Positions 13,045 through 62,356 of a DNA stretch of 62,424 nucleotides are shown piece by piece. The stretch's first letter is position 1, and each line of letters starts with the position of its first letter. A program made the position numbers and the translations under genes. The notes below the pieces were generated by a model. The model was given only the letters and a program-made list of their open reading frames with translations, was not told where the DNA came from and did not search any database. Source of the stretch: a virus. The stretch lies in the IMG/VR virus record IMGVR_UViG_3300030104_000782, positions 1 to 62,424 of that record; one strand, given 5' to 3'.

Positions 13045-13731
13045 ATGATCGATCTTTCTAAGATCTTTAATTATTCGCCAGATAACATAGCACCAGAGTT
13101 ATTAGAAGCAACAAAAGATTATGTTCTTGTTCCAGAAGATTCGTTTATGCCAACCGATGAGGTTCGTGAAAAAATTTTAGATTTCGTAGAGGAACCAGCA
13201 ACCGACATAATCAGTTTCCCATTTTTAACACCAAAATATTGCCGACAGCTTGTAGATACCTGCGAAGAGATAGGACAATTTAGGCATCGTCCTGGTGACG
13301 AATATCCTGCACCAGAGATTGACCTAAAAGATTTATCACCTTATGCCAATACAGCACACATACAAAAAATAGAGAAACACATAGTCCCTATAGCTGCATC
13401 ATTCTGGAATTTTCCTGTTATATGGTTGTCTTCTGCCTTCGTGGTGAAACACAGTATGGATGGACAGATTGGCAATCCAGGATGGCATCATGACGGATTA
13501 GCTGATGTAAGTTTATCGGTGCAATTAAACGATGATTTCGATGATGGTGGTGTGTATTTCGAAAGGCAAAAGTTTGCTGCTGGTCCATTACCAGTGGGTC
13601 ATGCAATATTGTTCCCTTCTCGTGTGACACATAGGCACACAGCTTTGAACATTACAAGAGGCAAACGATACTCACTCACATACTGGATGAAAGGAGATAT
13701 TCCAGAAGATTATTCTGCTAGGACTGTTTAA
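13045..13731 (+). CDS. 2-oxoglutarate/Fe(II)-dependent oxygenase
   Basis: A 228-residue protein with the double-stranded beta-helix signature: WHHDG (His and Asp iron ligands, about residues 149-151), LSVQLNDDFDDGGVYFER as core strand and turn, VTHRHTA with the distal His (about 191-193), and RGKRYSLTYW carrying the Arg that binds 2-oxoglutarate. It resembles prolyl/lysyl-hydroxylase-type P4Hc domains common in marine phages. The substrate is unknown (protein or nucleic acid). It is the only plus-strand gene in the left third, divergent from early cassettes and with a probable leaderless start. Confidence 0.85.
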   Translation: MIDLSKIFNYSPDNIAPELLEATKDYVLVPEDSFMPTDEVREKILDFVEEPATDIISFPFLTPKYCRQLVDTCEEIGQFRHRPGDEYPAPEIDLKDLSPYANTAHIQKIEKHIVPIAASFWNFPVIWLSSAFVVKHSMDGQIGNPGWHHDGLADVSLSVQLNDDFDDGGVYFERQKFAAGPLPVGHAILFPSRVTHRHTALNITRGKRYSLTYWMKGDIPEDYSARTV

Positions 13732-14440: not shown

Positions 14441-14884
14441 TTATTTTCCCGTACTACCGAAACCACCCATGCTTCGTTTTGTTATACCACTAAATTCTAA
14501 CACAGGAGTCCACATTACATTAATTATAGGTAAGATAACTAATTGTGCTATGCGATCACCTTTTCCTACATAATACTCTTTTTCGGAATTGTTAACAAGA
14601 TTCACAATTAATGAACCTTGATAATCAGCATCGATTATGCCGAGTGTGTTTTTAAGCGATATTCCTCTACTAGCTAATCCTGAGCGTGGGCAAATTAAAC
14701 CACATATTTCTGTATCACCTAAATATATGGCTAGACCTATGTCAAATTTATGCGACTCGTTGGGGAGTAGTTCTTTATCTTCTAACGAAACTAAGTCTAA
14801 CCCTGCTGAGCCGACAGTGGCATATTCTGGTGGGGATGGGTATGTTCCGTTTGTATGTGTTACTTTTAATTCTATTTTCTTCAT
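14441..14884 (-). CDS. dut: dUTP diphosphatase
   Basis: A 147-residue trimeric-type dUTPase, hydrolysing dUTP to dUMP and PPi. All five motifs are visible: AGLDL (about 28), PRSGLASRG (about 67), GIIDADYQG (about 84), GDRIAQLVI (about 110) and RSMGGFGSTG at the C-terminus. It supplies dUMP to the thymidylate-synthase-like enzyme at 19171-20238 and limits uracil incorporation, which matters if the phage makes modified uracil-derived bases. Confidence 0.95.
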   Translation of the reverse strand: MKKIELKVTHTNGTYPSPPEYATVGSAGLDLVSLEDKELLPNESHKFDIGLAIYLGDTEICGLICPRSGLASRGISLKNTLGIIDADYQGSLIVNLVNNSEKEYYVGKGDRIAQLVILPIINVMWTPVLEFSGITKRSMGGFGSTGK

Positions 14885-16133: not shown

Positions 16134-18014
16134 TTATTTGCTCCAGTATTTATTGTGGTCGACCACAGCAGTACCCCAAGTTTCCCCTATCTCAGCATCT
16201 ACTTTTGATGGCACTACTAGATCAACACAGTTTTCCATGATTTCTACAATCTTTCTACTTTCTTGTTTATTTAAAACTGATACGTCAAGTTCATCATGTA
16301 CCTGTATGTGAGGAACTATACCCTCTTCCCACATATCCAACATAGCTTGTTTTGTCATATCAGCAGCACTTCCCTGTATCAAGCGATTAAATGCACGATA
16401 AGTAAATGCCCGACGTAAGTTAGCACCATACTCTTCGTACGCTTGTTCAAAAGGGAGGGGTGTATTTTTCTCGTTTCTTGGTTCATACATGTCGAAACGA
16501 CATTTTCTACCCAAAAGTGTTTTTATGTAACCCACGTTTTCTGCCTTACGAGAGCAGGATAACGTAAGTTCTTTAATAAATGGTACTTTTGAATGATAGT
16601 TATTGAACAATGCATCAGCTTCAAGATCATTTATGCCGAGTGCTTGTATTAATTTAGTTTTACCCATGCCATAACTTAATGACAGGTTAATTACTTTTGC
16701 ATCTTTTCTTGCTATGCCTGCCATATCAGCCACTATCTGATGAAAGTCAGCATCGTCTTCTTTATAAGCAGACACTGCTTCTTCTGATCCAGGAAGATTC
16801 ATCCTAGATGCATAATGCACAGTTAATCTTGGTTCTTGTTGCGAATAATCAAAGGCACCCCAACTATGTCCTTCTTCTGGTAAAAACAAACCACGAACTA
16901 ATGGACCAAGAACAGGATCTCTAGCTGGTACTTGTTGCAAGTTTGGTGTGCTATAACTAAACCTGCCACTAACAGTGCCCCCAGAGTCACCACGCAGAGG
17001 ATGCATTTGCCCATGTATTCTACCTTTATGAGCATGTTCTAATACCATGTTTTCTATAAACGCACTGCGTATCTTTTGATATTTTCTAGCTTCAACAATC
17101 AATTTAGGTAGTCCGTGGTTAAGACTTTCTAGCCACTTACCAGTAAAACTAGGTGCATTAGTTTTTTGTGTTCTAGGATATGTTAACCCAGCTTTATCAA
17201 ACGCTCTAGCCACACTCGCTGATGCCCAAACGTCTACATCAACACCATACTTATACTTTATTTGTTTGATACATTCTCGCTCTTGTTTTCTTAATGTTTG
17301 TACACTCTCTTCTGCTTTACTTATGTCAACACGTACACCTTTCCATCTCATTTCTACAAGCAGAGGTATTAAGCTAGACTCTAGTTCATAAATAGATTGC
17401 AAGTTTTCATCTATAAGTTTTTTCTGTAATACATCCCACAACTTTAACGTAAGCACTGCGTCCTGTTCAGCGTACTCACCCACATATTTTGCAGGTAAGG
17501 CATACATCTCGGACTTTGGGTCTATACCCCATGCACTAGCAGCATCTTTTAGTAATGTTTCGTCTTTAGTTTCATCACAATAATCTGCACCTAAAGAGTC
17601 TAATGAGTATCTTCTGCGATGCTCATCTACCAGTGGAGCAGCAATCACAGTATCATGTATTTTACCCTGTATTCTAACACCCTCTCGTTTTAACCAACCA
17701 ACATCATACAATGCATTGTGAAATATTTTATCAGCACCACCACTTAGTGTTTTATTTAGCCAGCGTAACACAAGACCTACGTCTAGATTGCCACCACCTT
17801 CATGCCTTATGGGTAAATAACCACTCCAGTTATCTGTAGCTATGGCTATGCCAGTTACATGCCCATTACCAGTCGCCCATCCTGGACCAGATAACTTTAA
17901 ATCTGGGTCTTTAGTTTCTAAGTCAACAGCTATACGTTCGGCTGAAGATAGATCAGGCAGTGTCTCAGGAGGAGTCCAGTCAGATCTAGGTGTAAATATA
18001 GGTTGTTGTATCAT
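16134..18014 (-). CDS. polA: Family A DNA polymerase with 3'-5' exonuclease
   Basis: A 626-residue replicative polymerase. Exonuclease: VDLETKDPD (D31, E33), HNALYDVGW (D104), YAEQDAVLTL (Y181, D185). Polymerase: motif A AFDYSQQEPR (D389), O helix RKDAKVINLSLSYG with R436, K440 and Y448, motif C VHDEL (D574, E575). No 5'-3' nuclease domain. The residue equivalent to E. coli Phe762 is Leu (L444, codon CTG at 16683-16685), a variant reported to be widespread in marine virioplankton. It sits within the operon beside nucleases and nucleotide enzymes. Confidence 0.96.
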   Translation of the reverse strand: MIQQPIFTPRSDWTPPETLPDLSSAERIAVDLETKDPDLKLSGPGWATGNGHVTGIAIATDNWSGYLPIRHEGGGNLDVGLVLRWLNKTLSGGADKIFHNALYDVGWLKREGVRIQGKIHDTVIAAPLVDEHRRRYSLDSLGADYCDETKDETLLKDAASAWGIDPKSEMYALPAKYVGEYAEQDAVLTLKLWDVLQKKLIDENLQSIYELESSLIPLLVEMRWKGVRVDISKAEESVQTLRKQERECIKQIKYKYGVDVDVWASASVARAFDKAGLTYPRTQKTNAPSFTGKWLESLNHGLPKLIVEARKYQKIRSAFIENMVLEHAHKGRIHGQMHPLRGDSGGTVSGRFSYSTPNLQQVPARDPVLGPLVRGLFLPEEGHSWGAFDYSQQEPRLTVHYASRMNLPGSEEAVSAYKEDDADFHQIVADMAGIARKDAKVINLSLSYGMGKTKLIQALGINDLEADALFNNYHSKVPFIKELTLSCSRKAENVGYIKTLLGRKCRFDMYEPRNEKNTPLPFEQAYEEYGANLRRAFTYRAFNRLIQGSAADMTKQAMLDMWEEGIVPHIQVHDELDVSVLNKQESRKIVEIMENCVDLVVPSKVDAEIGETWGTAVVDHNKYWSK

Positions 18015-18526
18015 TCCGTTGCTCCGTAAGACTGCACTAAATGTGCAAGCAATGCTTTTCCTTTTGCGTTAAGTTTCATATCGACTAATTTTTCAACACC
18101 ATTACTAAAAACTACGTTCACGTTTGTGTTGCCTAAACTACGCTGATTAACACAGTACCAAAGTAACTCAAATAAATCAGATTGTTTAAAAAGTTCTTGT
18201 TCTTGTGGTGTTAAATCATAGTCAACACCTAAATCTTTCTCTATTTTCTTTTCTACTAACGCTAACTCTAACGCTAAGTCTTTGTTGTTCCACTTCGTGG
18301 GTGCAGGCATATCACCAGTTTGCTTCTCAGCTACATCGTGTGTAAGTGCCTTTAGTATTGCATGTTTGCTTATGTGTGGGTCTAGCCAATTTAGTATAAC
18401 AGCAACACCCCATGAGTGACTGCCTACAGTTTGTTCCCCTATGGTAGCCAGAGTGTGGTAACGCTTAACTTCCCCTCCGTCTAAGACGTTTAGTAGCTCA
18501 TCTACATTAGTACGTGCGATAGTCAT
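18011..18526 (-). CDS. HD-domain phosphohydrolase (5'-nucleotidase-like)
   Basis: A ~171-residue protein with TVGSHSWGVAVILNWL, LTHDVAE (the HD pair) and a late SDLFELLWY Asp, the arrangement of YfbR-like HD nucleotidases that dephosphorylate deoxynucleoside monophosphates. It could shape precursor pools for the modified-base pathway. Start at 18526 (MTIARTNVDELLNVL) fits a 20-nt overlap with the upstream gene; a Met seven codons upstream is possible. Overlaps polA by ATGA. Confidence 0.8.
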   Translation of the reverse strand: MTIARTNVDELLNVLDGGEVKRYHTLATIGEQTVGSHSWGVAVILNWLDPHISKHAILKALTHDVAEKQTGDMPAPTKWNNKDLALELALVEKKIEKDLGVDYDLTPQEQELFKQSDLFELLWYCVNQRSLGNTNVNVVFSNGVEKLVDMKLNAKGKALLAHLVQSYGATE

Positions 18527-19193
18527 TGCATACTCCTGATTTACCATAGTGGCACCACCTACAATTATCTACACTAGCTTTAGCAGGATATTCTGTTGCC
18601 TCAGTCAGTTTTAGTGCTCGATTATGGAATAGTTCTTGTCTCTCTTTTATGTCGTCAACAGTGTAGGAGTGTCGAGATATTTTACCATGGTCTAAATACC
18701 ATAACTCTGCCTGTATGTTTTCTACACTAGGGTCACGATTATACGTTGCAGCTGCATATAGAGCACACTGTTGTTCGTGAGAAGATTCGTTACCCATGTA
18801 TCTGCCTGTCTTAAAATCTATAACTACAGTGCGATCTGGTCTTTTTACATAAGCATCAATCTTATATCTGCACCAAGTTTTATCTTCGTTCCATGCTGCA
18901 GGTTGCCATTCTAAATCGAATGCCCAATCTTCTTCTACGAAAACAGTTCCTGCATCGTAACCTTCTCTAAGTTGTTCAAAACCTTCCTCAAACATATGCA
19001 AACCACGCGTCATGGGACCTTCACCCTTTATATACAGTTCGGCTTCATTATGTATGTTTGTTCCTCTGGTTGCAGCAGGATGCTGTGGTGTAGGGATCTT
19101 TTCTATATTAGCATAATAGTATCGTTTAGGGCATTGCTCAAAAACAGATAATCTACTGTATGACCAACGATTAACTATGGCATGGTCCGACAT
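18507..19193 (-). CDS. Cas4/RecB-like PD-(D/E)XK nuclease with Fe-S type cysteines
   Basis: A 228-residue nuclease: WSYSRLSVFEQCPKRYYY (N-terminal Cys), RGTNIHNEAE (motif I His), RYKIDAYVKR (Asp), VVIDFKTGR (D-x-K), EQQCALYAAATY (Q-x-x-x-Y), and a C-terminal CRWCHYGKSGVC cluster. One N-terminal plus three C-terminal Cys is the iron-sulfur staple of Cas4/AddB. No CRISPR array or Cas1 is present, so a recombination or DNA-end processing role is likely. Confidence 0.88.
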   Translation of the reverse strand: MSDHAIVNRWSYSRLSVFEQCPKRYYYANIEKIPTPQHPAATRGTNIHNEAELYIKGEGPMTRGLHMFEEGFEQLREGYDAGTVFVEEDWAFDLEWQPAAWNEDKTWCRYKIDAYVKRPDRTVVIDFKTGRYMGNESSHEQQCALYAAATYNRDPSVENIQAELWYLDHGKISRHSYTVDDIKERQELFHNRALKLTEATEYPAKASVDNCRWCHYGKSGVCNDYRTY

Positions 19194-20238
19194 CTTTCTC
19201 CTCCTGTTTACCTATGACTGCTTCTATGTCCTTAGTTTCTTCTGTACCTTTCAACCTTCTCTGTAACCACTCTACGCATGCTTTTTGCCAATCCTCAGCT
19301 TTGCAATATGTTTTTAAAACACCTATTGCTCCTTGTGTATTTTTATCTTTGTGCATACGCCAAGCAGTTTGCATCGGGATAACAACATCAGAGAAAAAAT
19401 GGTTTGCGAAATCTTGCTCAGCATCAGCAAAAAATGCATCTAAATCATTATCAAACTCTTCAGGGTCGTTAACCATGGGGAACACCGATAGTTCTTTGTA
19501 TGGGTTACCAACTAAAGGGTACTTAAAACTGTAGTAATCAAACTCAGGCAACTTATCTTTCATTTTATTAAACAGTTCCGTATATACATGGAAACTGTCG
19601 CTTACTTGATTATACACACCAACAGTTACACCTATTCTTGCTGCCATATATTCTTGTAACATAGAAAAATGTACAGCGTTTGCACCATACGCTCCCCATA
19701 TCATGTCATTAGACCTGCAACACACAGTCATGTTAAGTTTACCACTGCGCACTTTAAAATATATGTGAGTGTTGCAAGGAGTGTCTAGTGTAGTTCTATC
19801 TAAATCGTTATTACATTCCCACATAGCTACTACGCAACGACGATCGTCAGGATTTTCCTTTAACCTACGAACAACCACATCTAGCTGGTCTTTTTCGTAA
19901 AACTTTCGCCACCTATAGCCATATGCACCATTAAATGTTTCACCATTATCGGTGAACGCTCGCATACCTTTGTTATAATACGCAACAAAGTCTACGTCCT
20001 CTCTACCTTGTAACATCCACAAACCTTCCATAAAATGGAAAAATGGATTAGCATCCCTACCTTCCCAAAAAAGCACACGTTCACATGGGTTTTCGTATGT
20101 TGTTATAACTGGACCTTCAAACTCTAAAGTTTGTCCTGCCCTGCTATCTTGTTCTACAACATCATTATCCCACGTAAATGCGTCCATACCTAATATAAAT
20201 GCTTCATGAACATTTCTACTGTTTATAGTTTTAGCCAT
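19171..20238 (-). CDS. Thymidylate synthase/pyrimidine hydroxymethylase family enzyme
   Basis: A 355-residue ThyA-superfamily protein. Catalytic Cys155 lies in LDTPCNTHIYFKV, the phosphate-binding Arg in CCRSNDMIWG (about 175), Asn187 (GANAVHFSM) matches the Asn that selects uracil over cytosine, and SDSFHVYTE gives His/Tyr for ribose binding. Before NGAYGYRWR the paired Trp of ordinary synthases (E. coli W80/W83) is missing; loss of W80 is a mark of hydroxymethylases, so dUMP hydroxymethylation is plausible. It follows the glycosyltransferase by 16 nt in the putative modification cluster. Ordinary dTMP synthesis is the alternative. Confidence 0.82.
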   Translation of the reverse strand: MAKTINSRNVHEAFILGMDAFTWDNDVVEQDSRAGQTLEFEGPVITTYENPCERVLFWEGRDANPFFHFMEGLWMLQGREDVDFVAYYNKGMRAFTDNGETFNGAYGYRWRKFYEKDQLDVVVRRLKENPDDRRCVVAMWECNNDLDRTTLDTPCNTHIYFKVRSGKLNMTVCCRSNDMIWGAYGANAVHFSMLQEYMAARIGVTVGVYNQVSDSFHVYTELFNKMKDKLPEFDYYSFKYPLVGNPYKELSVFPMVNDPEEFDNDLDAFFADAEQDFANHFFSDVVIPMQTAWRMHKDKNTQGAIGVLKTYCKAEDWQKACVEWLQRRLKGTEETKDIEAVIGKQEEKDVGPCHS

Positions 20239-20254
20239 TTGTTATAATCTCCAG

Positions 20255-21589
20255 TTATACCACAGCAGACAGTTTGAAAAAGTCTGTCATGATTTCGTTA
20301 GTTTTATTCGCTACATTGTCAGAAACAACACCCACTTCTAGTTTACCATAAAAGCCTGTTGGTTCATTGTTAGCCAATGACAGATACTGAAGAGCTACTC
20401 GTTCTCTTTCGAAATGCTGTAAAAGTTTTCTATTGTTTTCTTGTATGTCTTCTGCCCAGTCTTGGTTTAAGTTTACAGTTTCTGTAATAACAGAAGCGAA
20501 CTCCTGAGGAGTAGCATCATGAGGCACCATCATATAGTTTTCTGAAGGTTTGAACACTTCGCCCTCACCTTCGGCATTGGTAGAGATTCCATAGTTCCTC
20601 GCAATAGGTATTGCCCCCTCTATTATCCCATCGACGATCACTCGATTAAAATGGTCACCTATTTTTGCGTATGCAACTGACCAGGATGGGTCAATTACGC
20701 ATTTAACCTGTCTTAAATGTTCCCTAACTTGTGCTTCAGTTAAGTAGCCAAACCATTCCATGCCATACTGTAGTGCTACATCCCATATCTTTTTACCATG
20801 ATGCTCGTAACTTATATCTGGGTCAAGTTCTGGTGAAACAAAATACTTTTCCTTACATTTATCTTTAGAGGTCATGTAGTTGTGCTCAATACCACCACCA
20901 GCCATACGTTTCTCAAAAGTTTCTGGTAAATGTGGGATAGCTCTAACTAAATCGTCAACATGTTTCCAACCTTTGAACGTTTGCATAGAGATAAATCCGT
21001 TCTTACGTTGATTCCAATTAGGTTTGTTTAAGTCGCTTATGTCTTGTGGGTTAAGTATCAACGCTCTAGGTACATTTAGTACAGCAGCACCATGGTAAGC
21101 ACAAGGATGCACACAAGCTAAACCATTTAGATGATGGGATATCTGGCTTATCCAGGGATAACTTTTTTGCATATTACCATCGTGGATAACAGCTACCTGT
21201 TTAATTCTATCAGGTAAATCATACAATGCCAACCAATCCGTATTACCTTCATTGTCTCTTTGCTTTGTAGGAACAGGGATTTGCCACACAATTAAATCGT
21301 ACTCAGCCACATACTCTTTCCAACGTTTAAGATTACTGTTGCCTTTGTAAGCAAACCTACTGCTTTTAGGAAACAACCAACCTTTTCCTTGATGTACAGG
21401 TATGCCAGAACCACGCTGTTCATAGCCAGTTTTATCTTTTGTAGTTTTTTCTTTAATAGATTCTCGCCATACAAGTTCTATAAAGTCAACGTGGTGACCT
21501 TGTAGCTTAAAGCCAGAAATTAAGTTTTCATTGTGGTTTATTATGCCACCAGGACTGTTAATCCCATACATTGTTACCAATATTTTCAT
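20255..21589 (-). CDS. GT-B glycosyltransferase
   Basis: A 444-residue protein. MKILVTMYGINSPGGIINHN is a GT-B first strand with a glycine-rich acceptor loop; GFISMQTFKGWKHVDDLVRA begins the second Rossmann domain, and VIVDGIIEGAIPIARNYG is the E-x(7)-E-like nucleotide-sugar site of GT4-type retaining enzymes. Lying between the Nmad1-like and ThyA-like genes with ATGA overlap upstream, it may glycosylate a hydroxymethylated base in DNA; modification of the host envelope or virion is the alternative. Confidence 0.8.
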   Translation of the reverse strand: MKILVTMYGINSPGGIINHNENLISGFKLQGHHVDFIELVWRESIKEKTTKDKTGYEQRGSGIPVHQGKGWLFPKSSRFAYKGNSNLKRWKEYVAEYDLIVWQIPVPTKQRDNEGNTDWLALYDLPDRIKQVAVIHDGNMQKSYPWISQISHHLNGLACVHPCAYHGAAVLNVPRALILNPQDISDLNKPNWNQRKNGFISMQTFKGWKHVDDLVRAIPHLPETFEKRMAGGGIEHNYMTSKDKCKEKYFVSPELDPDISYEHHGKKIWDVALQYGMEWFGYLTEAQVREHLRQVKCVIDPSWSVAYAKIGDHFNRVIVDGIIEGAIPIARNYGISTNAEGEGEVFKPSENYMMVPHDATPQEFASVITETVNLNQDWAEDIQENNRKLLQHFERERVALQYLSLANNEPTGFYGKLEVGVVSDNVANKTNEIMTDFFKLSAVV

Positions 21590-21894
21590 GTATTTTCCTC
21601 CTTTCTTTTAGTTACATGTTCTTCAACTAAAAGCAGATATCTTCTTAAATCTTGTATGTCATCTAAGATTCCCTCTGCTCGTGTATCGTTTTCGTATGCT
21701 TCAAATATGTCGTAAGCAACTTTCTTAACTTGATTTTCGATGCGATCCCACTTACGAGCCAACATCATAAACGCACCTACACCGCCACGTTGTCGCCATG
21801 ATGTGCCATAAGACTTCTCTGCTGTTTCTAGTTTATCAACATCAGTTTGTGCGATCACTCGCATGTTTTCAAATTTACTAAATTGGTTGTTCAT
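21586..21894 (-). CDS. Nucleotide-modification-associated (Nmad1/DUF1599-like) protein
   Basis: A ~102-residue helical protein. SYGTSWRQRGGVGAFMMLARKWDRIE followed by GILDDIQDLRRYLLLVEEH resembles the helical DUF1599/Nmad1-type and MazG-like proteins that accompany DNA-base modification genes in phages. Start at 21894 is chosen because it overlaps the FkbM stop as ATGA. The family call is by eye and tentative; the genomic neighbourhood supports it. Confidence 0.6.
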   Translation of the reverse strand: MNNQFSKFENMRVIAQTDVDKLETAEKSYGTSWRQRGGVGAFMMLARKWDRIENQVKKVAYDIFEAYENDTRAEGILDDIQDLRRYLLLVEEHVTKRKEENT

Positions 21895-22535
21895 CTTGTA
21901 TATGCTCCTATAGTATGCCAATTATTACCTGTGTCTCTATACTCTCGCATAGGTTTAAATCCTTGATCTAGCATGCTTTGGTTTAGTTCTTTACCTTTAG
22001 CACGCCATGTAGAATCATATTGAAAATGTATTTCCATTACAAGTTTTTCAACATAATCAGGAAACACATAAGGCATGAACCCATACTCTGCTCCCTCTAC
22101 ATCTATTTTTATCTTGTTAGGTTTAGTTTGTTGTATGATATCATCAAACTTTAGTGCTAACACTTTTACTGCATCTCTACCTCTAACCTCACGAGTCATG
22201 TGTAAACCTTTGTTTTTCTTAGAGTTTACATACAGATAAACATAATCACTATCATCACCAACAACAGCACAACGTGTGTTTACAGAGTTAGGACTGTTTA
22301 CATTTAACAGTTCGAAGTTATCCTCATCTGGTTCGTAAGAATACACTTTTTTAGCACCCTCTTGTGTTGCGTATAAACTAAATGCACCAATGTTTGCCCC
22401 TATGTCTAAAACTGTGTCGCTTTCTTGTATGTCTAGCATATTGTACGAAGGACGTATTTCTTTAAACACATACTCGTCTAGTGTGCCAGGACGCACCCAT
22501 CCCCCAAATTTTTCTAAATATTCTATCCCTTCCAT
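21891..22535 (-). CDS. FkbM-family methyltransferase
   Basis: A 214-residue SAM-dependent methyltransferase: VLDIGANIGAFSLYA (motif I, about 43-57), VYSYEPDEDNFELL (acidic ribose-binding strand), and IKIDVEGAEYGF (FkbM motif, about 140-151). FkbM enzymes O-methylate sugars and related acceptors. Between the HMUDK_hel-like gene and the glycosyltransferase it might methylate a sugar attached to DNA. Overlaps both neighbours. Confidence 0.87.
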   Translation of the reverse strand: MEGIEYLEKFGGWVRPGTLDEYVFKEIRPSYNMLDIQESDTVLDIGANIGAFSLYATQEGAKKVYSYEPDEDNFELLNVNSPNSVNTRCAVVGDDSDYVYLYVNSKKNKGLHMTREVRGRDAVKVLALKFDDIIQQTKPNKIKIDVEGAEYGFMPYVFPDYVEKLVMEIHFQYDSTWRAKGKELNQSMLDQGFKPMREYRDTGNNWHTIGAYTR

Positions 22536-23374
22536 TTATATATACTCCTCGGTTTGCCTTCGCCATTTCTTACACGTTCATACTTATCGAACTCGCAAAG
22601 GGTGTGTTCGATATCTCGCATTTCTAAATTAGGTACTTGCCCATGTAACCACTCATGACTTAACTCAAGCAATACTTGCATTTCCCCTATATTTATGTCA
22701 CTTTTTATTTGTTTATTTAATGGTCTATTGTGTATTCTGTTGAGACCACGCTTTGCTCCAGGTCCAGGATTACCCCATGTCATAATATCTGTAGCTTCGT
22801 CCCCTAAAAATGTATGTCGCCAATCGGTAACTACCTCATAAGCCATAAATGGACCCATGTAAGGGTAAGGCATGAGCACATCCCACAATGCTTTCAACGA
22901 ACCTTTAGCTTCGTGTATAGAATCTATAAACTTGTTGTTATCCTTAACTATTTGGTCAATACACCAACATACACCGTTTAGTTTGTCCATACCATTCGGT
23001 GTCTTTATGATGTATGCTCCTGTAACCCATTGTGGCTGTTCTTTCAATACTTCTACACAGTGTTCGCTATCCCAGTTTCTGTATAAATCTTCTTTTAGTA
23101 GTATTTTTCCTGTTTCTATCAAATTAAACCACCTAAATATAATCGTGGCTAATGCGACATCAATGTCATTACGCATACCCTCTCTTACATTCTCTCTGAA
23201 CCAAACAGTTGTTCTATCGTTTTCACGAAACACATTAGTAAACTTATATTTTTGTAGGATAGGGTCAGAAGTCCATGGATATTCCTCACCTCTAGATTTC
23301 CGTAAATGTATTAAATGTCTTTCGTTTAAAAAATTAAAAAACTTATGTAAATTCTCTGCTCTATACCATCCCAT
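22523..23374 (-). CDS. Alpha-glutamyl/putrescinyl-thymine pyrophosphorylase-like (HMUDK_hel) protein
   Basis: A ~283-residue helical protein. ERHLIHLRKSRGEEYPWTSD followed by a KYKFTNVFRENDR-type segment (about 20-60), GAYII (about 135), PFMAYEVVTDWRHT and IMTWGNPGPGAKRGL match the helical family found with 5-hydroxymethyl-dU DNA kinases and the aGPT-PPlase enzymes that finish hypermodified thymines (Iyer/Aravind prediction; later Weigele-type studies). No P-loop kinase domain is fused to it or obvious elsewhere in the genome. ATG at 23374 is chosen over a GTG at 23383 because GGAGGTGA lies 5 nt upstream. Confidence 0.85.
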   Translation of the reverse strand: MGWYRAENLHKFFNFLNERHLIHLRKSRGEEYPWTSDPILQKYKFTNVFRENDRTTVWFRENVREGMRNDIDVALATIIFRWFNLIETGKILLKEDLYRNWDSEHCVEVLKEQPQWVTGAYIIKTPNGMDKLNGVCWCIDQIVKDNNKFIDSIHEAKGSLKALWDVLMPYPYMGPFMAYEVVTDWRHTFLGDEATDIMTWGNPGPGAKRGLNRIHNRPLNKQIKSDINIGEMQVLLELSHEWLHGQVPNLEMRDIEHTLCEFDKYERVRNGEGKPRSIYKWKG

Positions 23375-23375
23375 A

Positions 23376-24185
23376 CTAATCACCTCCCATTACTCTTTTA
23401 TCTAGTTTCTTACGTGCGACAATATCTAACAGTTCAGCAACATCTTTACCACTTTTTGTTTTAGGTGGTTCTATTTTAACAAAACCAAGAACATTGTCTA
23501 TTTTTGCCTCTGCTTCTGCGTCTGTAATCACTACAGGTTTGTCAGCTTCACCACGTCTTACTTTATGAAAGTCATCTAACTGTTTTTCAAAACTATGATA
23601 ACGAACACTACTTAGTTGTGGTAAACCATTTCTCCTTCTACGATGATTTCTAAGGGCTTTAGCATACCAATAACCTTTACCACTATACTTAGCTTTTGCT
23701 CTTTTTTCATACATAGCGTCCATAAGTGCATACTCACTACGCAATATCATATGTAGATCGTCTAAATCTTCTTGTATATATGCCGAATGACCACCATTAG
23801 CCTCGTCTGCACAATCAGCGTAAAGCTCAGCTTGAGCAAGTATGTCAGGAGCAACGTAATGTTCATGTACACTAGGCACGTGTTCGACAAAGCCCTCTTT
23901 ACTATAAGTTTTGTATGGATTTTTATTACCTTCATAAGTGTGTAGTTTTCTACATTCCTCAGAACAACAAGTACCTACACGATATTCTTCATTTATTGGA
24001 CCACCACAAAATGAACAACCATACACGACAGGTTTGTAAGGCTCAGGTCGTTTTATATGTTTAATTAGTTTTGGTTTTGGTTTTGGTTTTGGCTTAGACT
24101 TATAAACAGTTCGTAAAGGGTTTTGTTTTACGATATCTAATACAGGTAAAAACTGTATATATCTAACTAAATCCTCCCACTTCAT
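23376..24185 (-). CDS. Zinc-finger protein with KP repeat
   Basis: A 269-residue basic protein: an N-terminal helix, a KPKPKPKPK stretch (about 31-39), a CSFCGGPINEEYRVGTCC segment followed by SEEC, a treble-clef/zinc-ribbon-like CxxC...CxxxC site (about 57-80), then a helical, Arg-rich body. It stands first in the cluster before the HMUDK_hel-like gene. DNA binding is likely; a specific role in modification is unproven. Confidence 0.6.
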   Translation of the reverse strand: MKWEDLVRYIQFLPVLDIVKQNPLRTVYKSKPKPKPKPKLIKHIKRPEPYKPVVYGCSFCGGPINEEYRVGTCCSEECRKLHTYEGNKNPYKTYSKEGFVEHVPSVHEHYVAPDILAQAELYADCADEANGGHSAYIQEDLDDLHMILRSEYALMDAMYEKRAKAKYSGKGYWYAKALRNHRRRRNGLPQLSSVRYHSFEKQLDDFHKVRRGEADKPVVITDAEAEAKIDNVLGFVKIEPPKTKSGKDVAELLDIVARKKLDKRVMGGD

Positions 24186-47791: not shown

Positions 47792-48033
47792 AGCCAACTA
47801 CTGATTAATGTAATACCTATTGAAACAAAAGAAGTCGCAAGAAAAGCTAAAGTGCCGATCAGTAAATTTTTAGTTTCTTTAGCTTGTTGCTCTAAGTTTA
47901 ATGTGACGTTGAGTATGTTATTATCTATTGTGTCGAATCTGTTGAATGCTGTTTTCCAGCGTTCAGTACACTGTATTTCATGTTTAGCTAAATCATTAGC
48001 TACGTCTTGTGCTGTTGCTTTTTTAGTTGCCAT
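47788..48033 (-). CDS. Holin-like (XhlA-type) membrane protein
   Basis: An 81-residue protein: a hydrophilic helical N-terminus (about 1-55, coiled coil) and a single C-terminal transmembrane helix (LIGTLAFLATSFVSIGITLI). This topology and composition match haemolysin XhlA/holin-type proteins. It directly precedes spanins and lysozyme and overlaps the cyclase 3' end by 11 nt. Confidence 0.65.
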   Translation of the reverse strand: MATKKATAQDVANDLAKHEIQCTERWKTAFNRFDTIDNNILNVTLNLEQQAKETKNLLIGTLAFLATSFVSIGITLISSWL

Positions 48034-49771
48034 GCGTTGTGTATACCTCCAATTTTGTACTTTTACCTTTTACTTGTAAAGGTTCTAGTTTTATTAAGTT
48101 TTGCTCACTTTTTACAGCAGTGTTGTGCCCGATCACTATATCTTTACCAACTTCTTTCGTTGAACTTTCTAGTCTTGCTGCAACATTGACTGCATCACCT
48201 ATAGCAGTATAATCGAATCTTGTAGCACTACCCATGTTGCCCACTACAGCTTCTCCTGTGTTGATTCCTACCCCTATCTCTACACCTAGCGAAGACTCTT
48301 TAAACTGTTTCTGTATGTCAATGGCTGCAAGTATGGCTTGATTCTCATGGTTTTCTAAATCCAAAGGTGCATTAAATATAGCCATCATGGCATCGCCTAT
48401 GTATTTGTCGACCATACCACCATATTTTTTAACTGTTTCAGATTGTATAGTCAAAGCTGCATTCATAATGGTAGTTACACTTTCTGGATCCATACTTTCA
48501 CTCATAGCAGTAAAACCACGAACATCTGTAAATAAAAAAGTACAGTATTTTTTCTCCCCACCAAGTTTTAAGGAAGCAGGATCTTTCTGTAATCTTTCGA
48601 CTTGACGTGGGTCTAAGTAATGTTCAAACTGTTTTTTAATTTGTTGTCTTAACTTGTATTGCTCTCTAAATCGTAAATAAAACGCTACTGTTGTTGTGAC
48701 AAACTGAGAAATCAACGACCAAGTTACATCTATTAAAATGTTTTGTTGTATAGTCCAGTATCCATATACCATAGTACATAATATTACACTTGTTGCTGTT
48801 AATACACCAAATGTTATACCTAAGTAAGAAAGTAACAACCAAACTACAGAAACAGTTAAAACTAAAATCAATAATTCTACAGCTAAAGCATAGTCTGGTA
48901 TGTATGGACTATTTTCTATTAAAATAGACTCTGCTAATGCTGTTTGTATTTTGTGTGGTTCTAACAACCCTGCAGGTGTGGCTATCTGTGGCATAATACC
49001 TTTTGCAGTAAAACCAACAAAAACAAACTTGTTTTCTACATCCATCTCTCGTAAATCAGTCTGTGGTGTATCTACCCAACTTACCCATTTACGACCTAAT
49101 GAATCTACAGAAACAGCTGGTAAACCTTTTACTCTTATTTCTTCTAGTCCGTTAGAATTAGTTTTTAAAACATATGTATCAGCATTAGCCAATACTTTTA
49201 ACACTTCTGTGCCATACGCAGGAACCCAACCTTCTGGTGTCCGTAATAATAATGGTAGTCTACGAACTAAACTATCAACATCAGTTCTTGCAACTGCTAC
49301 ACCTTGATTAGCATTAGTTTTTAATACATCTATGTTTTGTACCACACCTTGTGCTAATATGCCACCTGTGTCTTCACCTAAAATAACAGTTCCTGTAGTT
49401 TCAGGGTATTCGTTAGTGTTGTTTTCATACATGGCTAATACACTTGGTGCAAAACTTAATGCTTCTGAAAACTCAAAGTCGCCACCGAATCTATCTGGCT
49501 GTGGAAAAGCTAATACCCATCCTACACCTATAGCACCTTTCCTTAATAAATTTATTTGTATTTGTGCTAATGTTTGTCTAGATAAAGGATAACCACCCTC
49601 ATTAGCGATATCTTCTTCAGTTATGTTGAGTATTGTGAAATATCCTGAAGGTTCTTGTGTAGGAACAAATGCGTCGAAAGTTTTAAGTTTTAGTGTTTCT
49701 AAAATGTTGATTTGATTCAATAGAGGAACTACGAAAACAAACAACAAAAACATAAAAATTAATTTTTTCAC
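48023..49771 (-). CDS. CHASE2-domain class III adenylate cyclase
   Basis: A 582-residue inner-membrane enzyme making cAMP. An N-terminal signal-anchor, a periplasmic CHASE2 sensor (about 30-290), about three transmembrane helices (295-366), a linker coiled coil, then the cyclase domain (about 405-575). Catalytic residues are all present: metal Asp416 (FTDVRGFT) and Asp460 (GDAMMAIF), adenine-selecting Lys456 and Thr522 (DYTAIGDAVN), transition-state Asn529 and Arg533 (AARLES). GTG start overlaps the FecR stop (TAGTG). CHASE2 cyclases paired with FecR proteins occur in bacterial chromosomes; I know of no characterised phage example. Confidence 0.95.
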   Translation of the reverse strand: MKKLIFMFLLFVFVVPLLNQINILETLKLKTFDAFVPTQEPSGYFTILNITEEDIANEGGYPLSRQTLAQIQINLLRKGAIGVGWVLAFPQPDRFGGDFEFSEALSFAPSVLAMYENNTNEYPETTGTVILGEDTGGILAQGVVQNIDVLKTNANQGVAVARTDVDSLVRRLPLLLRTPEGWVPAYGTEVLKVLANADTYVLKTNSNGLEEIRVKGLPAVSVDSLGRKWVSWVDTPQTDLREMDVENKFVFVGFTAKGIMPQIATPAGLLEPHKIQTALAESILIENSPYIPDYALAVELLILVLTVSVVWLLLSYLGITFGVLTATSVILCTMVYGYWTIQQNILIDVTWSLISQFVTTTVAFYLRFREQYKLRQQIKKQFEHYLDPRQVERLQKDPASLKLGGEKKYCTFLFTDVRGFTAMSESMDPESVTTIMNAALTIQSETVKKYGGMVDKYIGDAMMAIFNAPLDLENHENQAILAAIDIQKQFKESSLGVEIGVGINTGEAVVGNMGSATRFDYTAIGDAVNVAARLESSTKEVGKDIVIGHNTAVKSEQNLIKLEPLQVKGKSTKLEVYTTHGN

Positions 49772-50889
49772 TAGCTTCCTTGTTTAATAGTTATTGTGTT
49801 GATTGAACCACCATTTACCTTGACCACATTCTCTACACCATCTTGAAACAATATTACTGTATATGCGTTAGAACCATCTAAATCTAGTCTGACTGATTGT
49901 CCTACGTTTCTACGCAAACTAATCATCTGTCCTGTAACTATAGTTGTTATCTGTGTTGTTTTATCCTGACCGATCTCCGTTCCTGCTATACGTATGCTCG
50001 TAGCTACTTGACTCAACGTGTCTTCTTCCTCAGATACATCTAAAGCATCGATAATACTTAATAAATCTTCTAAAAAATTAACATCAAGATAGTTTATGTC
50101 AAGTTCTGTAAACTCTAACTGTGCTTCGTTATCTAAAACATCTTCAGCTAAAAAATCTACATCAAGGTCGTTAAAGTCTAGATAATCAATTGTGTTTTGT
50201 GACTGTGTTTCTTGTAAAACCTGTTGTGTTTCTCTAGGTGGGTTTACTATCAGCATGTTGTCTATAAACTCTAAACTTATGTCTAGTATAACTGGTTTAG
50301 AAGGTGGTTGATTATAGGTAAGCGTTGTTGTTGCTTGAAATGCTTGATTTAGTAAAACTTCACCCATAGCTGTTTTGACTAAAATCTCACCTGATGGGTT
50401 ACCATACTCGTCAGGCAACAAGATGACTAAAGAAGATCCTGTTTCTGGTGTAGTGGTTATGGTAAAATCTGTTCCTCTCACAAACACATCAGCACTTTGT
50501 GTTTTTATGTGTATAGCTTTTTTATTATTAAATTTACCTGTAACGAAACGAGCAGTGCCACTTGCAAAACGTAGTGCCATTTCAGATTTAGTAGGATTAG
50601 CATCGTATATATACGAGTCTATAACCAATTTACTGTGTGGCATAACTCGAACTATAGTTTCATCAACAAATGTTACTGCAAGTTTACCACCTTGTGTTTT
50701 TATGTTGTCTAGCTGTTGTATAGGGAACTGTAGCTCAGCACCATAAGGTTTGTCTCTGACAACCTGAGCGATACCGTTAAGTTCGCTAATACTACCTATA
50801 TCAACAGCTTGTGCTAGTACCTTGGTCGTTTTGAATGATGCAAACAGTGCTAGTAGTAGTACCAACACTTGTAACTTTAAGCCAGTCAT
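49771..50889 (-). CDS. Secreted FecR-domain protein
   Basis: A ~372-residue periplasmic protein. The start at 50889 gives a signal peptide (TGLKLQVLVLLLALFASF, then KVLAQA). Residues ~45-180 carry the FecR beta domain: DNIKTQGGKLAVTFVDETIV, a KLVIDSYIYD strand, ALRFASGTARFVTG, and VFVRGTDFTITT. The rest is acidic with LDVDFLAEDVL and LDVNFLEDLL repeats (about 240-275) and a C-terminal beta region. FecR domains transmit periplasmic signals; the partner here is probably the CHASE2 cyclase encoded immediately downstream. The start overlaps the curlin-like gene by 89 nt. Confidence 0.87.
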   Translation of the reverse strand: MTGLKLQVLVLLLALFASFKTTKVLAQAVDIGSISELNGIAQVVRDKPYGAELQFPIQQLDNIKTQGGKLAVTFVDETIVRVMPHSKLVIDSYIYDANPTKSEMALRFASGTARFVTGKFNNKKAIHIKTQSADVFVRGTDFTITTTPETGSSLVILLPDEYGNPSGEILVKTAMGEVLLNQAFQATTTLTYNQPPSKPVILDISLEFIDNMLIVNPPRETQQVLQETQSQNTIDYLDFNDLDVDFLAEDVLDNEAQLEFTELDINYLDVNFLEDLLSIIDALDVSEEEDTLSQVATSIRIAGTEIGQDKTTQITTIVTGQMISLRRNVGQSVRLDLDGSNAYTVILFQDGVENVVKVNGGSINTITIKQGS

Positions 50890-51514
50890 TGTCTTGTGTA
50901 GATGCCTGTGTAATGTTAAAAGTACGATTAGAACCATCATGATCTAACCAAAAATAGCCACCTGCATAACCAGTGCCTGCATAAGTCACAGCATTATCAT
51001 TACCATCTAGATTCATGTAGTTAGTTGCACCGTCTACGTTGACTCCAGCTGTAATGGTGTTGCTGTCACCACTAACAATCCAGTCTAGATCTAGTGTTCC
51101 TGCTAAAGCTGTTGTTGCATGGTTTAGAGTAAATGTGTTAGTGTTACCTGTTACGTCTACGTTTACGTTTGAGCCATCTGCACCATACGTGTTACTAGGA
51201 TCAGTTTGCATGTTAAAAGTGTTAGTGTCACCATCGAACTCAAAAAAACCTGTGTAGTTATCTGCCCAAATATCTCCTAAAAATTTATTTGTGTTTCCTA
51301 TTTGGTTTATGTCTAAATTCATGACTGTACCATCTAAATCTAATGCTGTCATAGAACCTGCAGTAGCATCAGAACCACCTATAATGTTGCCTGAACCTAA
51401 CTGTTCTAAATCAAAATTTGAGTTACTAGCACCTGAACTTTGATCTATAAATATTTCATTGTCTGCTGCATACAATGGAGCAGATAGAAATAATATTAAT
51501 AAAAGTTTTTTCAT
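50801..51514 (-). CDS. Curlin-like secreted amyloid subunit
   Basis: A ~237-residue protein with a clean signal peptide (MKKLLLILFLSAPLYA). The mature part has spaced curlin-style repeats: NFDLEQLGSGNIIGG, MNLDINQIGNTNKFLG, FDGDTNTFNMQ, VTGNTNTFTLNH, SGDSNTITAG and GNDNAVTYAG, near the S-x5-Q-x-G-x2-N-x-A-x3-Q plan of CsgA/CsgB, and ends with two Cys. Substrate of CsgG export is inferred from the neighbouring csgG and csgF. ATG at 51514 overlaps the csgG stop as ATGA, which fixes the start. Confidence 0.83.
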   Translation of the reverse strand: MKKLLLILFLSAPLYAADNEIFIDQSSGASNSNFDLEQLGSGNIIGGSDATAGSMTALDLDGTVMNLDINQIGNTNKFLGDIWADNYTGFFEFDGDTNTFNMQTDPSNTYGADGSNVNVDVTGNTNTFTLNHATTALAGTLDLDWIVSGDSNTITAGVNVDGATNYMNLDGNDNAVTYAGTGYAGGYFWLDHDGSNRTFNITQASTQDNDWLKVTSVGTTTSTVCIIQNDQGTSTSC

Positions 51515-52326
51515 TCTTTCATCCTCCAATATCCGTTCTCTACACCCTCTCTTATAGTTTCAAGAACTGCTGTTTCGATTGCCATTTGCAAAGCAATACT
51601 AATAGGCTCATTTTTAACTGAACCACCTTCTAGTTCAACTAACTCAGTTCCTTCCGTAATAAACCTAAAGACGTCATTGTCTAAAGAAGCAGAAAGAATA
51701 GTTTTAGTTACTAAAACTTCCATAAGAACTTTTCCTGTGCTTACTGAAACAGTCCTTAATCCAACAGTAAGTGTATCTGATCTATACTGTTTTGACAAAC
51801 CGATTCCTAAATATCTGGCTCCTGCACCACCACTAGAAGTATTAGCTTGATAAGAAAGCACTCCTCCCGTCATTATCATGTCAGCAAATTTTAAAGGTAT
51901 AAGTTTTTTATCCTCATCAAAACTTTCTCTGGTTGATCTAATCAACTGTCGCTCTTTTGTAACTGCGTCTAACGACACACGTTCAACTACTTCGAAGAAT
52001 CCATTATGCTCAGAACCTGCTTGTTTCAATGCTCTAATTAAATAAGCATGTGGTGCTTGTGTAACAGCACTACTGAATGTCGCATACGTAGAGTTCGACC
52101 TACGTTGTCCTGTTTCGTCTTTGAAAGCGTCCGCATACACTGCTATAACTGGCTTCCTTATAGGTTCTTTTACATAACGCAAATCTGTGTACAATGTGTC
52201 GACCACTGGTGACACAGTTCTTTCTGTTGGTGGAAAGTTGTTTTCTAGAGGGTCAATCATTAATGTACAACTAGAAAGTAAAACTGCCAACAGGCACAAC
52301 GATTTCTGTAACTGTTCCTTCTTCAT
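51511..52326 (-). CDS. csgG: CsgG-like outer-membrane curli secretion lipoprotein
   Basis: A 271-residue lipoprotein (lipobox LLSSC, Cys20). Colinear with E. coli CsgG: KPVIAVYADAFKDETGQ, AVTQAPHAYLIRALKQAG, VVERVSLDAVTKERQLIRST, a GGAGARYLGIGLSKQYRSD stretch, LRTVSVSTGKVLMEV, FRFIT, NEPISIALQMAIETAV and DGxxxGxW-like ENGYWRM. CsgG forms a nonameric pore for curli subunits. The Tyr/Asn/Phe eyelet of E. coli aligns poorly (only the Phe is clear), so the constriction may differ. Overlaps csgF by 56 nt. Confidence 0.94.
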   Translation of the reverse strand: MKKEQLQKSLCLLAVLLSSCTLMIDPLENNFPPTERTVSPVVDTLYTDLRYVKEPIRKPVIAVYADAFKDETGQRRSNSTYATFSSAVTQAPHAYLIRALKQAGSEHNGFFEVVERVSLDAVTKERQLIRSTRESFDEDKKLIPLKFADMIMTGGVLSYQANTSSGGAGARYLGIGLSKQYRSDTLTVGLRTVSVSTGKVLMEVLVTKTILSASLDNDVFRFITEGTELVELEGGSVKNEPISIALQMAIETAVLETIREGVENGYWRMKE

Positions 52327-52876
52327 CTGTTATAGTAACTCTTACTGTTTCATCGGTAATCTCATATTCTATCACATTTCCTTCTAGTTCCATCGAACCA
52401 AAGTTAGACTTAGTCTCACCGAACAAGTTGTCTTCTATCTGTCTAGCTAAGTTTGCATAAATCCTAGATGTTAAGTTCCTCATAAACCTAGCCTCTACAG
52501 TATTGTCTTTTTCACGATCGATTTCGTCTTTTAACGCTTGTATTTCGTCTTTTATAGCTTGTTTACGATTAGTTTCTTGATTTTCTATAGTAAGGTAGTG
52601 ACTAGAAGTTCCTTGTCCACTAAACGATGGCGATTTAAATTTATGCACCATCTCATCAGCACTTAAATAAGTTGCGAACACCATTCCTGTTACACTTAAA
52701 ATTATTAAAGCTGTGCATGACCTTTTAATTATTTTATCTAGATGTATATAGTCTTTTTCGAATTGAGTGTTTGTACATTCATAAAAATACTTGTCTCTAG
52801 GTATAGGTTCAAATATAACATTGTCTATTGAAACAAGTTGATCTCTTTCTATTTGTTTAATTTTTTGTTTGTTCAT
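52271..52876 (-). CDS. csgF: CsgF-like curli assembly factor with N-terminal extension
   Basis: A 201-residue protein whose residues ~74-201 match CsgF: MVHKFKSPSFSGQGTSSHYL corresponds to the CsgG-binding peptide of E. coli CsgF (F-x-N-P-x-F), followed by a helix (NLTSRIYANLARQIEDNLFG) and a beta end. Unlike the usual ~19-residue leader, ~50 charged residues precede the hydrophobic segment (54-70); a cleavage site at LSA (73) would still free the peptide. CsgF couples CsgG pores to nucleation. Overlaps its neighbours. Confidence 0.88.
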   Translation of the reverse strand: MNKQKIKQIERDQLVSIDNVIFEPIPRDKYFYECTNTQFEKDYIHLDKIIKRSCTALIILSVTGMVFATYLSADEMVHKFKSPSFSGQGTSSHYLTIENQETNRKQAIKDEIQALKDEIDREKDNTVEARFMRNLTSRIYANLARQIEDNLFGETKSNFGSMELEGNVIEYEITDETVRVTITDEEGTVTEIVVPVGSFTF

Positions 52877-53111
52877 CTTTTTCTTTTTCTTTTAACTCTA
52901 AAACAGTATTAACTTTTTGTTGTAATCGAATCATATCTTGGTCTAATAAACGTAATTGATCTGTTAGTCTTATTGTTGTTGATTTCATCTCCTCTACTGC
53001 AGGATCGATCTTGTTGGTTATCGTTTGCCAGACAAAATAAACAAAATAACCTAAACCTACAACCATGACTACAGGAAAACCAAAGTCTGCTATAAGTTGA
53101 GTTATATCCAC
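52857..53111 (-). CDS. Small membrane protein, holin-like (BhlA/UviB-like)
   Basis: An 84-residue protein: a transmembrane helix near the start (about 11-30), then a coiled coil (about 40-80). It shares LIADFGFPVV-type N-terminus with the next gene upstream, so the two are tandem paralogs. Overlaps csgF by 20 nt. May be a holin or antiholin, or a membrane partner of the curli set. Confidence 0.55.
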   Translation of the reverse strand: MDITQLIADFGFPVVMVVGLGYFVYFVWQTITNKIDPAVEEMKSTTIRLTDQLRLLDQDMIRLQQKVNTVLELKEKEKDEQTKN

Positions 53112-53404
53112 TAGTCTCTCCTTGCATCGATTTTTCCATCTTCTACAAAGTTTTCAGCTCTAGCTATTCTATTCAAGTCGGGTGGAATGCCTAACGCACT
53201 AGAAACACTAACATCTATACGAATCATGTCGTTATTCATAATAGATGCTCTTGTAATTAACATTTTAGATATACCCTGTACAGTTTTTATCTCGTCTACT
53301 AAACCATCCATAAGTTGTTTCATAACTAAAAAGATAAAGTATGCCATAATCAAAGCACCAGCTATCGGCAGACCTAACTCAGCGATAAGGTCAAACACCT
53401 CCAC
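53111..53404 (-). CDS. Small membrane protein, paralog of the next
   Basis: A 97-residue protein with one transmembrane helix (LPIAGALIMAYFIFLVMK, about 12-29) and a helical charged tail. LIAELGLPIA parallels LIADFGFPVV of 52857-53111. Stop and start codons overlap by 1 nt. Confidence 0.55.
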   Translation of the reverse strand: MEVFDLIAELGLPIAGALIMAYFIFLVMKQLMDGLVDEIKTVQGISKMLITRASIMNNDMIRIDVSVSSALGIPPDLNRIARAENFVEDGKIDARRD

Positions 53405-61274: not shown

Positions 61275-61682
61275 TTAATACTCTTTGACTACTGTTAGAA
61301 CAATAACGTATGAGTCGCCACTAGCATGCCCAGTAGTTGTTAACTTGATGTCACCTGTTTTACCACTGGCAGCTGCAGTATTTTGCAGTCCACCCATGTA
61401 CGAAAAGTCAACATAATCACTGTAGTCAGAATTTAAATCCCAACATATAGTGTTCGTGCTAGCATTCCATAACAGTTTGACACTCATGCCGAAAGTAGAA
61501 TAATTTATGTCGTAAAGTTTACAACCAGTGCAAGCAGCACCATCACTTTTTCTAGGAGCAAGTGCACTTACATCTACTTTTGTTACTGCCGATTCACCAG
61601 TTCCGTCAGATGTGTTAGTCAGCTGTATTACAGCTTTCCTGTCATCATCTACAATCGTTGTTGAAGTTACTGCATCAGCCAT
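61275..61682 (-). CDS. Structural protein between head and tail genes
   Basis: A 135-residue beta-type protein (STTIVDDDRKAVIQLTNTS, KLLWNASTNTICWDLNSDYS). Complete counterpart of the gene cut at the left edge. Probably head-completion or tail component. Confidence 0.65.
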   Translation of the reverse strand: MADAVTSTTIVDDDRKAVIQLTNTSDGTGESAVTKVDVSALAPRKSDGAACTGCKLYDINYSTFGMSVKLLWNASTNTICWDLNSDYSDYVDFSYMGGLQNTAAASGKTGDIKLTTTGHASGDSYVIVLTVVKEY

Positions 61683-61695
61683 AGTTTACCTCCTA

Positions 61696-62202
61696 TTAAG
61701 CGTCAGCAAATGGTGTAACTATAGTGCCTGAGCCTAAAATTATACCTTCAACAGCATACTTAGCAGAAGCTATAGCAGTTACTTTTACTATACTGCCAGC
61801 TAATCCACCTTTAGTTGAACCGTTCATGGTGATTACATCGTTAGATGCACCTGATATAAATACCTTACCACTTGCATCATCTTTACCTGAATAAAGACCA
61901 CCAACAAACTTATCAGTTCCGTCTGTTAGTATGTCCATGTCTGTAGCTGCAGTTTCTACTACGAAAAAGAAACTAGCACCTAAATTGTTAAGTTGGTTAG
62001 GATCATCATCCTGTCCTGGTGCTGTAGCCACAATACTAGGAAGTGTGAACTTACCATCCGCATCGTTACATGTTAATACTTTACCTGCGTGTGCAGCAAC
62101 TGTCAGACTAGTGTCTGCTGTTAAACTTACAACTGTCGCATTACCTGCCGAAATAAAACCAGCTAAGGATCTAACTGGTCCCGAAAATGTCGATTTTGCC
62201 AT
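61696..62202 (-). CDS. Capsid decoration protein (right copy)
   Basis: A 168-residue protein colinear with 18-524 and 91% identical (15 substitutions, mostly conservative, clustered at residues 104-113 and in the last 30 residues). Context, ribosome site and leader are the same as in the left copy. It most likely represents the same gene in a second variant. Confidence 0.75.
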   Translation of the reverse strand: MAKSTFSGPVRSLAGFISAGNATVVSLTADTSLTVAAHAGKVLTCNDADGKFTLPSIVATAPGQDDDPNQLNNLGASFFFVVETAATDMDILTDGTDKFVGGLYSGKDDASGKVFISGASNDVITMNGSTKGGLAGSIVKVTAIASAKYAVEGIILGSGTIVTPFADA

Positions 62203-62223
62203 AATTTCCTCCTTTGGAAATAA

Positions 62224-62265
62224 GTTCTATAGTCTTGGCTTGTCTGCTAGGTCAGTCTATAGAAC
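62224..62265 (-). promoter_or_regulatory. Leader stem-loop (right copy)
   Basis: Same 9-bp arms as at 546-587 (62224-62232 with 62257-62265); the loop differs at two bases. Confidence 0.55.
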
Positions 62266-62337: not shown

Positions 62338-62356
62338 ACTTATTCTAAACGATTAT

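Follow-up and report, generated by a model that had tools for sequence, protein, structure and literature searches.

A gene cluster in a pelagiphage-like genome with a predicted sugar branch of thymidine hypermodification

This study concerns six consecutive genes in a viral DNA record, IMG/VR IMGVR_UViG_3300030104_000782. The window analyzed is the complete record, 62,424 bp in length. The genes encode a zinc-finger protein, an HMUDK_hel protein, an FkbM-family methyltransferase, a small protein designated ORF111, a GT-B glycosyltransferase (GT), and an enzyme with the thymidylate synthase (TS) fold. We propose that they form a sugar branch of thymidine hypermodification leading to a base-J-like O-methyl-glycosyl derivative of 5-hydroxymethyl-deoxyuridine (5-hmdU). 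The chemistry is predicted, and we place the probability of this reading at roughly 0.7. An earlier note on this DNA had suggested that thymine is hypermodified by attachment of a sugar that is also methylated. Comparative loci support that suggestion, and its product remains a prediction.

The six-gene cluster

Six consecutive, mostly overlapping genes had been described at 19171-24185, and all six open reading frames (ORFs) were confirmed there on the minus strand. They lie consecutively within a minus strand operon spanning 16.1-24.2 kb. Successive genes are separated, stop to start, by -8, -13, -4, -4 and +16 nt, and most starts follow a good ribosome-binding sequence. This arrangement shows one translationally coupled block.

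The zinc-finger protein (23376..24185, minus strand) appears to be accessory. Its CxxC...CxxC cysteine pattern was read in the translation and no significant family was found (treble clef E=0.46; phrog HNH E=0.013). Homologues occur in loci L001, L002 and L008, while L003, L005 and L007 have another cysteine-pair protein (F77) instead. Only half of the close relatives conserve the gene. The next gene (22523..23383, minus strand) encodes an HMUDK_hel protein of aGPT-PPlase clade 1 (PF18723, E=1.9e-47). Its structure model has a pLDDT of 93.6. A PDB sequence search produced no match, and a structure search produced nothing significant; the top entry, a queuosine-salvage enzyme (DUF2419, E=0.69), was not used as evidence. 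The earlier label "aGPT-PPlase-like" is correct as to family. The protein itself is neither a pyrophosphorylase nor an amino-acid transferase, the latter being PF18724.

The methyltransferase (21891..22535, minus strand) matches Methyltransf_21 (PF05050) at E=2.3e-13, scoring 51.1 bits against a curated cut-off of 22.7. An S-adenosylmethionine-binding motif, VLDIGANIGAFSL, was read in the translation. ORF111 (21586..21894, minus strand; 111 aa) is a small conserved protein, found in 60 of the first 84 loci of the survey described below. Its start is likely the ATG at 21894 and not the TTG at 21921. The ORF exists as described earlier, but the likeness to Nmad1 is weak. ORF111 itself has no Pfam match, Nmad1 (PF07659) included, and its Bacillus phage Goe26 relative matches DUF1599/Nmad1 at E=0.02 only. 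It also matches SPO1 gp30, in the C-terminal portion of that protein (E=1e-5).

The fifth gene (20255..21589, minus strand) is firmly predicted to encode a GT-B (GT4-like) glycosyltransferase on the basis of its structure model (pLDDT 90.2). Its Glycos_transf_1 match is weak (E=8.5e-5, below the curated cut-off). The model matches GT-B/GT4 enzymes including the T4 DNA alpha-glucosyltransferase (1y6f/1y6g), to which the similarity is structural, with 10-12% identity. The best named viral structural match is an SP-15 GT. An (E/D)-x7-D motif at 312/320, recognized by eye, replaces the EX7E motif of GT4 enzymes. A PDB sequence search with this protein produced chance matches only. The sixth gene (19171..20238, minus strand) encodes the TS-fold enzyme (Thymidylat_synt PF00303, E=3.4e-25), a predicted deoxyuridine monophosphate (dUMP) hydroxymethylase.

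Partner genes of HMUDK_hel

Searches seeded with HMUDK_hel, together with phage records, generated 133 loci, which formed 56 clusters at 70% identity. Usable flanks were available for 52 lineages. A GT was present in 28/52 lineages and an amino acid:DNA transferase (ADDT, PF18724) in 14/52, and no lineage contained both (Fisher p=1.1e-6). A kinase accompanied 13/14 ADDT lineages. FkbM/F59 methyltransferases were found in 10/28 GT lineages vs 0/24 others (p=9.5e-4). When kinase/ADDT was initially compared with GT across the raw loci, the result was p=0.06, because four near-identical loci have a kinase plus F71 and many loci have neither; it was set aside after dereplication, when no lineage had both GT and ADDT.

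The GTs that lie between HMUDK_hel and the hydroxymethylase, or that flank them, belong to four dissimilar families: the window GT-B, TAGT (PF20691), F53 and F71. F53 and F71 have no Pfam match and were called GTs from sequence features read by eye. A T2/T6 member of TAGT glucosylates DNA (PMC13216743). F53 adjoins a TET/JBP oxygenase in 14/21 clusters. FkbM is found with the window GT, beside TAGT in L056, L207, L209, L254, L256 and L293, and near F53 in L116 and L158. Some loci carry nucleotide-sugar genes in the same position, either an NAD epimerase (F108) or a cytidylyltransferase plus a mannose-6-phosphate-isomerase-like protein (F103). The cultured Brevibacterium phage LuckyBarnes (L243:5601-9616) encodes HMUDK_hel (gp38), two TAGT proteins (gp39/gp40) and a dUMP-hydroxymethylase-like TS (gp41), and a 5-hmdU kinase was not found in its full 50,774-bp genome.

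Three further features of these loci were recorded. In L120-L157, adjacent to terminase genes, F53 glycosyltransferases stand beside TET/JBP oxygenases and often ParB-like proteins. The glycosyltransferases of L017, L034, L062, L254, L269, L293 and others have a recurrent radical SAM/SPASM neighbor (F46), which might alter the sugar. A short protein (F34; L052:9460-9900 and relatives; phrog_12275, no Pfam match) occupies many slots and resembles, by eye, a uracil-DNA-glycosylase fold.

Several observations weigh against the proposed sugar branch. The Fisher p-values are guides, as the lineages share ancestry and independence is overstated. A GT and a kinase occur together in six lineages, so that the presence of a GT does not strictly rule out a kinase. 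A direct HMUDK_hel-GT fusion was not found among the loci, whereas an HMUDK_hel-kinase fusion exists. HMUDK_hel is not always needed, because ctUhy936 has TAGT and a hydroxymethylase without it. GT4 folds are generic: TarM, PimA and BshA match the window GT model as well as the T4 DNA alpha-glucosyltransferase does, so the fold alone does not decide that DNA is the substrate. Finally, in 31 of the first 80 loci (within L009-L044) a class I methyltransferase (F10) is encoded just upstream of HMUDK_hel, and no GT was recognized. HMUDK_hel, hydroxymethylase and F10 without a recognized GT or kinase is in fact the commonest arrangement in the first set, and such loci may make something else, for example by direct methylation of 5-hmdU.

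The F10 loci raise the alternative that the window methyltransferase also acts directly on the hydroxymethyl group, giving 5-methoxymethyl-dU, and that the GT modifies another base fraction or is secondary. The lack of TAGT in 11 F10-type contigs is in keeping with this idea. However, F10 and FkbM are different methyltransferase families, and in this data set FkbM, to which the window enzyme belongs, is restricted to GT loci. We consider direct methylation in the window unlikely.

Alternatively, the GT and FkbM proteins could be passengers that modify a surface glycan or virion protein, leaving TS and HMUDK_hel to make just 5-hmdU or a simpler modification. Polysaccharide loci often contain members of the GT4 and FkbM families, and such enzymes are among the top PDB matches. 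The earlier note had itself raised a grouping with envelope-polysaccharide enzymes. The family of the window GT was collected by a GT-seeded search plus all other loci and formed nine clusters at 60% identity. Eight of the nine adjoin HMUDK_hel and TS, the ninth (a T4-like clade) adjoins a TET/JBP oxygenase, and no polysaccharide locus was recognized around family members. The translational coupling of the GT slot also argues against passengers, as does the recurrence near HMUDK_hel and TS of four dissimilar GT families, all excluding ADDT. Taken with these contexts the passenger explanation is improbable, and we propose that the window GT is a DNA glycosyltransferase acting on 5-hmdU. A search of 50,697 public phage records gave no match to the window GT family or to F53.

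The T4-like viral contigs (L092-L108) have a TET/JBP oxygenase directly beside a relative of the window GT. Neither a C5-cytosine methyltransferase nor a TS was found in six of these contigs of 64-169 kb, fragments that could hide such genes. Their absence hints that the oxidized base is thymine, and these contigs are candidates for a phage base J.

In M6, PaMx11 and Goe26, HMUDK_hel accompanies the 5-hmdU DNA kinase, either as a partner protein or as a fused domain. PF18723 lies directly downstream of the P-loop kinase and near the ADDT in M6, PaMx11 and Sonora, and the kinase and HMUDK_hel form one polypeptide in Goe26. The earlier note saw no such kinase in this DNA and reasoned that the route must differ or depend on another protein. 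Indeed, PF18748 was not found in the whole record by a search that detects the kinases of M6, PaMx11, Goe26 and two other records. Neither PF18724 nor a Tet_JBP oxygenase was found in the whole record. The absent kinase is no gap, because a GT can use the free hydroxyl and GT and ADDT lineages exclude each other.

The known kinase and amino-acid route could still operate through an unrecognized or host kinase, with HMUDK_hel itself as the amino-acid transferase. HMUDK_hel normally adjoins or is fused to a kinase, and by eye it seems related to PF18724, with an alike C-terminal motif near LCEFDK / LCKWKS. Against this, ADDT lineages nearly always carry a recognizable kinase and never a GT (0/14), and the sole P-loop motif of the window is that of UvrD. 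We regard this route as highly improbable here.

The HMUDK_hel proteins share 36 invariant residues across 14 kinase-linked and 25 other members, and no position is fixed differently between the two groups. One of the "other" members (L062) has a kinase gene a short distance, a few genes, from it. A maximum-likelihood phylogeny built from 56 HMUDK_hel representatives requires at least 6 changes between the sugar and amino-acid states, and at least 16 when six partner states are distinguished. Strongly supported sister pairs join ADDT with GT (L053/L253) and ADDT with TAGT (L263/L264). Such repeated swapping suggests that both chemistries draw on one shared activity of HMUDK_hel, and we infer that in the simplest case it recognizes or everts 5-hmdU in DNA. 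It is an even bet that HMUDK_hel is a general 5-hmdU-DNA platform for interchangeable transferases (kinase plus ADDT, at least four GT families, perhaps a methyltransferase alone), in which case base-J-like glycosylated and methyl-glycosylated thymines would be widespread in ocean phages.

The predicted hydroxymethylase and the proposed pathway

The window TS-like protein and its cluster relatives were aligned with E. coli ThyA, T4 gp42, SPO1 gp29, M6 gp58 and PaMx11 gp51. Asn177, the residue of uracil specificity, is kept in the window protein and in the cluster relatives compared. Trp80 is lost, His147 is replaced by Asn, and Leu143 is replaced by Asp, a call that requires an ungapped alignment up to the catalytic Pro-Cys (one later alignment moved Asp143 by one residue). 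The same changes are found in all cluster TS proteins compared, and the Asp143/Asn147/lost-Trp80 pattern is shared by M6 gp58 and by SPO1 gp29, a dUMP hydroxymethylase. Position 147 has been named as a discriminating position (PMC8670742). M6 gp58 and PaMx11 gp51 share 44-45% identity with the window enzyme, whose nearest PDB entries are CMP 5-hydroxymethylases. From these residues the ThyA-like protein is predicted to be a dUMP hydroxymethylase making 5-hydroxymethyl-dUMP, not a thymidylate synthase. An ordinary synthase, a possibility entertained in the earlier note, with a cluster devoted to general nucleotide metabolism would fit PF00303 membership and the phrog annotation "thymidylate synthase", but the residue pattern makes it extremely improbable.

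The operon extends beyond the six genes into a PD-(D/E)XK/Cas4-like nuclease (18507..19193, minus strand; PF12705, E=2.7e-20), an HD-domain nucleotide phosphohydrolase and a family A DNA polymerase (PolA). The phosphohydrolase (18011..18547, minus strand) is YfbR/DatZ-like (PF12917, E=8.9e-13), is homologous to M6 gp59 and PaMx11 gp52, and likely clears competing nucleotides. The polymerase (16134..18014, minus strand) is 38% identical to the M6 and PaMx11 polymerases and is expected to copy with 5-hmdUTP. A dUTPase-like protein (14441..14884, minus strand), read from the translation alone, would supply dUMP.

The proposed pathway has four steps. First, the ThyA-like enzyme would turn dUMP into 5-hydroxymethyl-dUMP. 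With the pool shaped by the HD phosphohydrolase and dUTPase, 5-hmdU would enter DNA through the phage polymerase. Second, HMUDK_hel would bind or evert 5-hmdU in DNA, as it would for the kinase in M6-type phages. Third, the GT-B enzyme would take a sugar from a nucleotide sugar of the host and attach it straight to the free hydroxymethyl group, so that no kinase or pyrophosphate intermediate would be needed. Fourth, the FkbM enzyme is proposed to O-methylate a hydroxyl of the transferred sugar. The product, a base-J-like O-methyl-glycosyl-5-hmdU, would protect virion DNA. With a hexose as the sugar, a nucleoside mass of ~434.15 Da is expected, or 420.14 without the methyl group.

The genome and its relation to known systems

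This is a phage from the ocean and kin of SAR11-infecting phages, with an HTVC023P-type pelagiphage-like genome. Its terminase is 57% identical to that of 023Pt_psg01, 54% to HTVC027P and 52% to HTVC023P. The curli/FecR/cyclase region typical of the HTVC023P-type group is present, its genes recognized by eye against PMC9599517. It occupies 48000-53400 on the minus strand, is curli/type VIII secretion-like, and appears to encode CsgG-like, curlin-repeat-like, FecR-like and CHASE2-adenylate cyclase-like proteins. Passages of PMC9599517 describe a region of this type in pelagiphages. A probable 2-oxoglutarate-Fe(II) oxygenase, also recognized by eye, lies at 13045-13731 on the plus strand, opposite to its neighbors. 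Over 750 bp the two ends of the record (1-746 and 61678-62424) match at 87% identity, and a copy of one 168-aa gene lies in both. The ends do not form an exact terminal repeat, and a circular permutation may have separated two gene copies that stood in tandem.

The same passages report TS, aG/PT-PPlase1 and a 5'-deoxynucleotidase in pelagiphages of this group, some with a beta-glucosyl-HMC-alpha-glucosyltransferase. Finding TS and HMUDK_hel here is therefore not new in itself, and treating the whole gene set as new was dropped. Their GT annotation is of the TAGT (PF20691) type, whereas FkbM and a GT-B enzyme of a different family are found in the window, both unmentioned in those passages. A kinase-free sugar route is likewise not proposed there, and prior proposals may exist elsewhere.

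Phages M6, PaMx11 and ViI share with the window the hydroxymethylase family, HMUDK_hel, the HD phosphohydrolase, PolA and a similar gene order. The window lacks their kinase, ADDT, and pyridoxal phosphate, flavin adenine dinucleotide, radical SAM and acetyltransferase tailoring enzymes, and has FkbM and a GT-B enzyme instead. In T4 and T6 (alpha-glucosyltransferase, TAGT) a hydroxymethylpyrimidine is also made on the nucleotide and glycosylated in DNA, and the T4 alpha-glucosyltransferase has the GT-B fold. However, the base is cytosine rather than the uracil predicted here, HMUDK_hel and the sugar methyltransferase are extra, and the GT similarity is structural only. Base J (JBP/TET plus J-glucosyltransferase) resembles the predicted product in being a glycosyl-5-hydroxymethyl-uracil, and relatives of the window GT adjoin TET/JBP. 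The window differs in its phage host, in the additional methylation, and in a hydroxymethyl group that would be introduced before replication by a TS-fold enzyme. SP-15 glucosylated dihydroxypentyluracil is a phage thymine derivative with a sugar, but its base core differs and its carbohydrate cluster comprises ten genes (PMC5977210). Glucosylated 5-hmdU was stated in 2019 to be unreported in phages (PMC6449724).

If the proposed sugar branch is correct, thymidine hypermodification would have a second, kinase-free chemistry, and the poorly understood HMUDK_hel domain would have a role outside the kinase pathway. A base-J-like modification would be predicted in ocean phages, together with several new candidate families of DNA glycosyltransferases. 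LuckyBarnes, which is cultured and carries the TAGT version, would make the sugar route directly testable.

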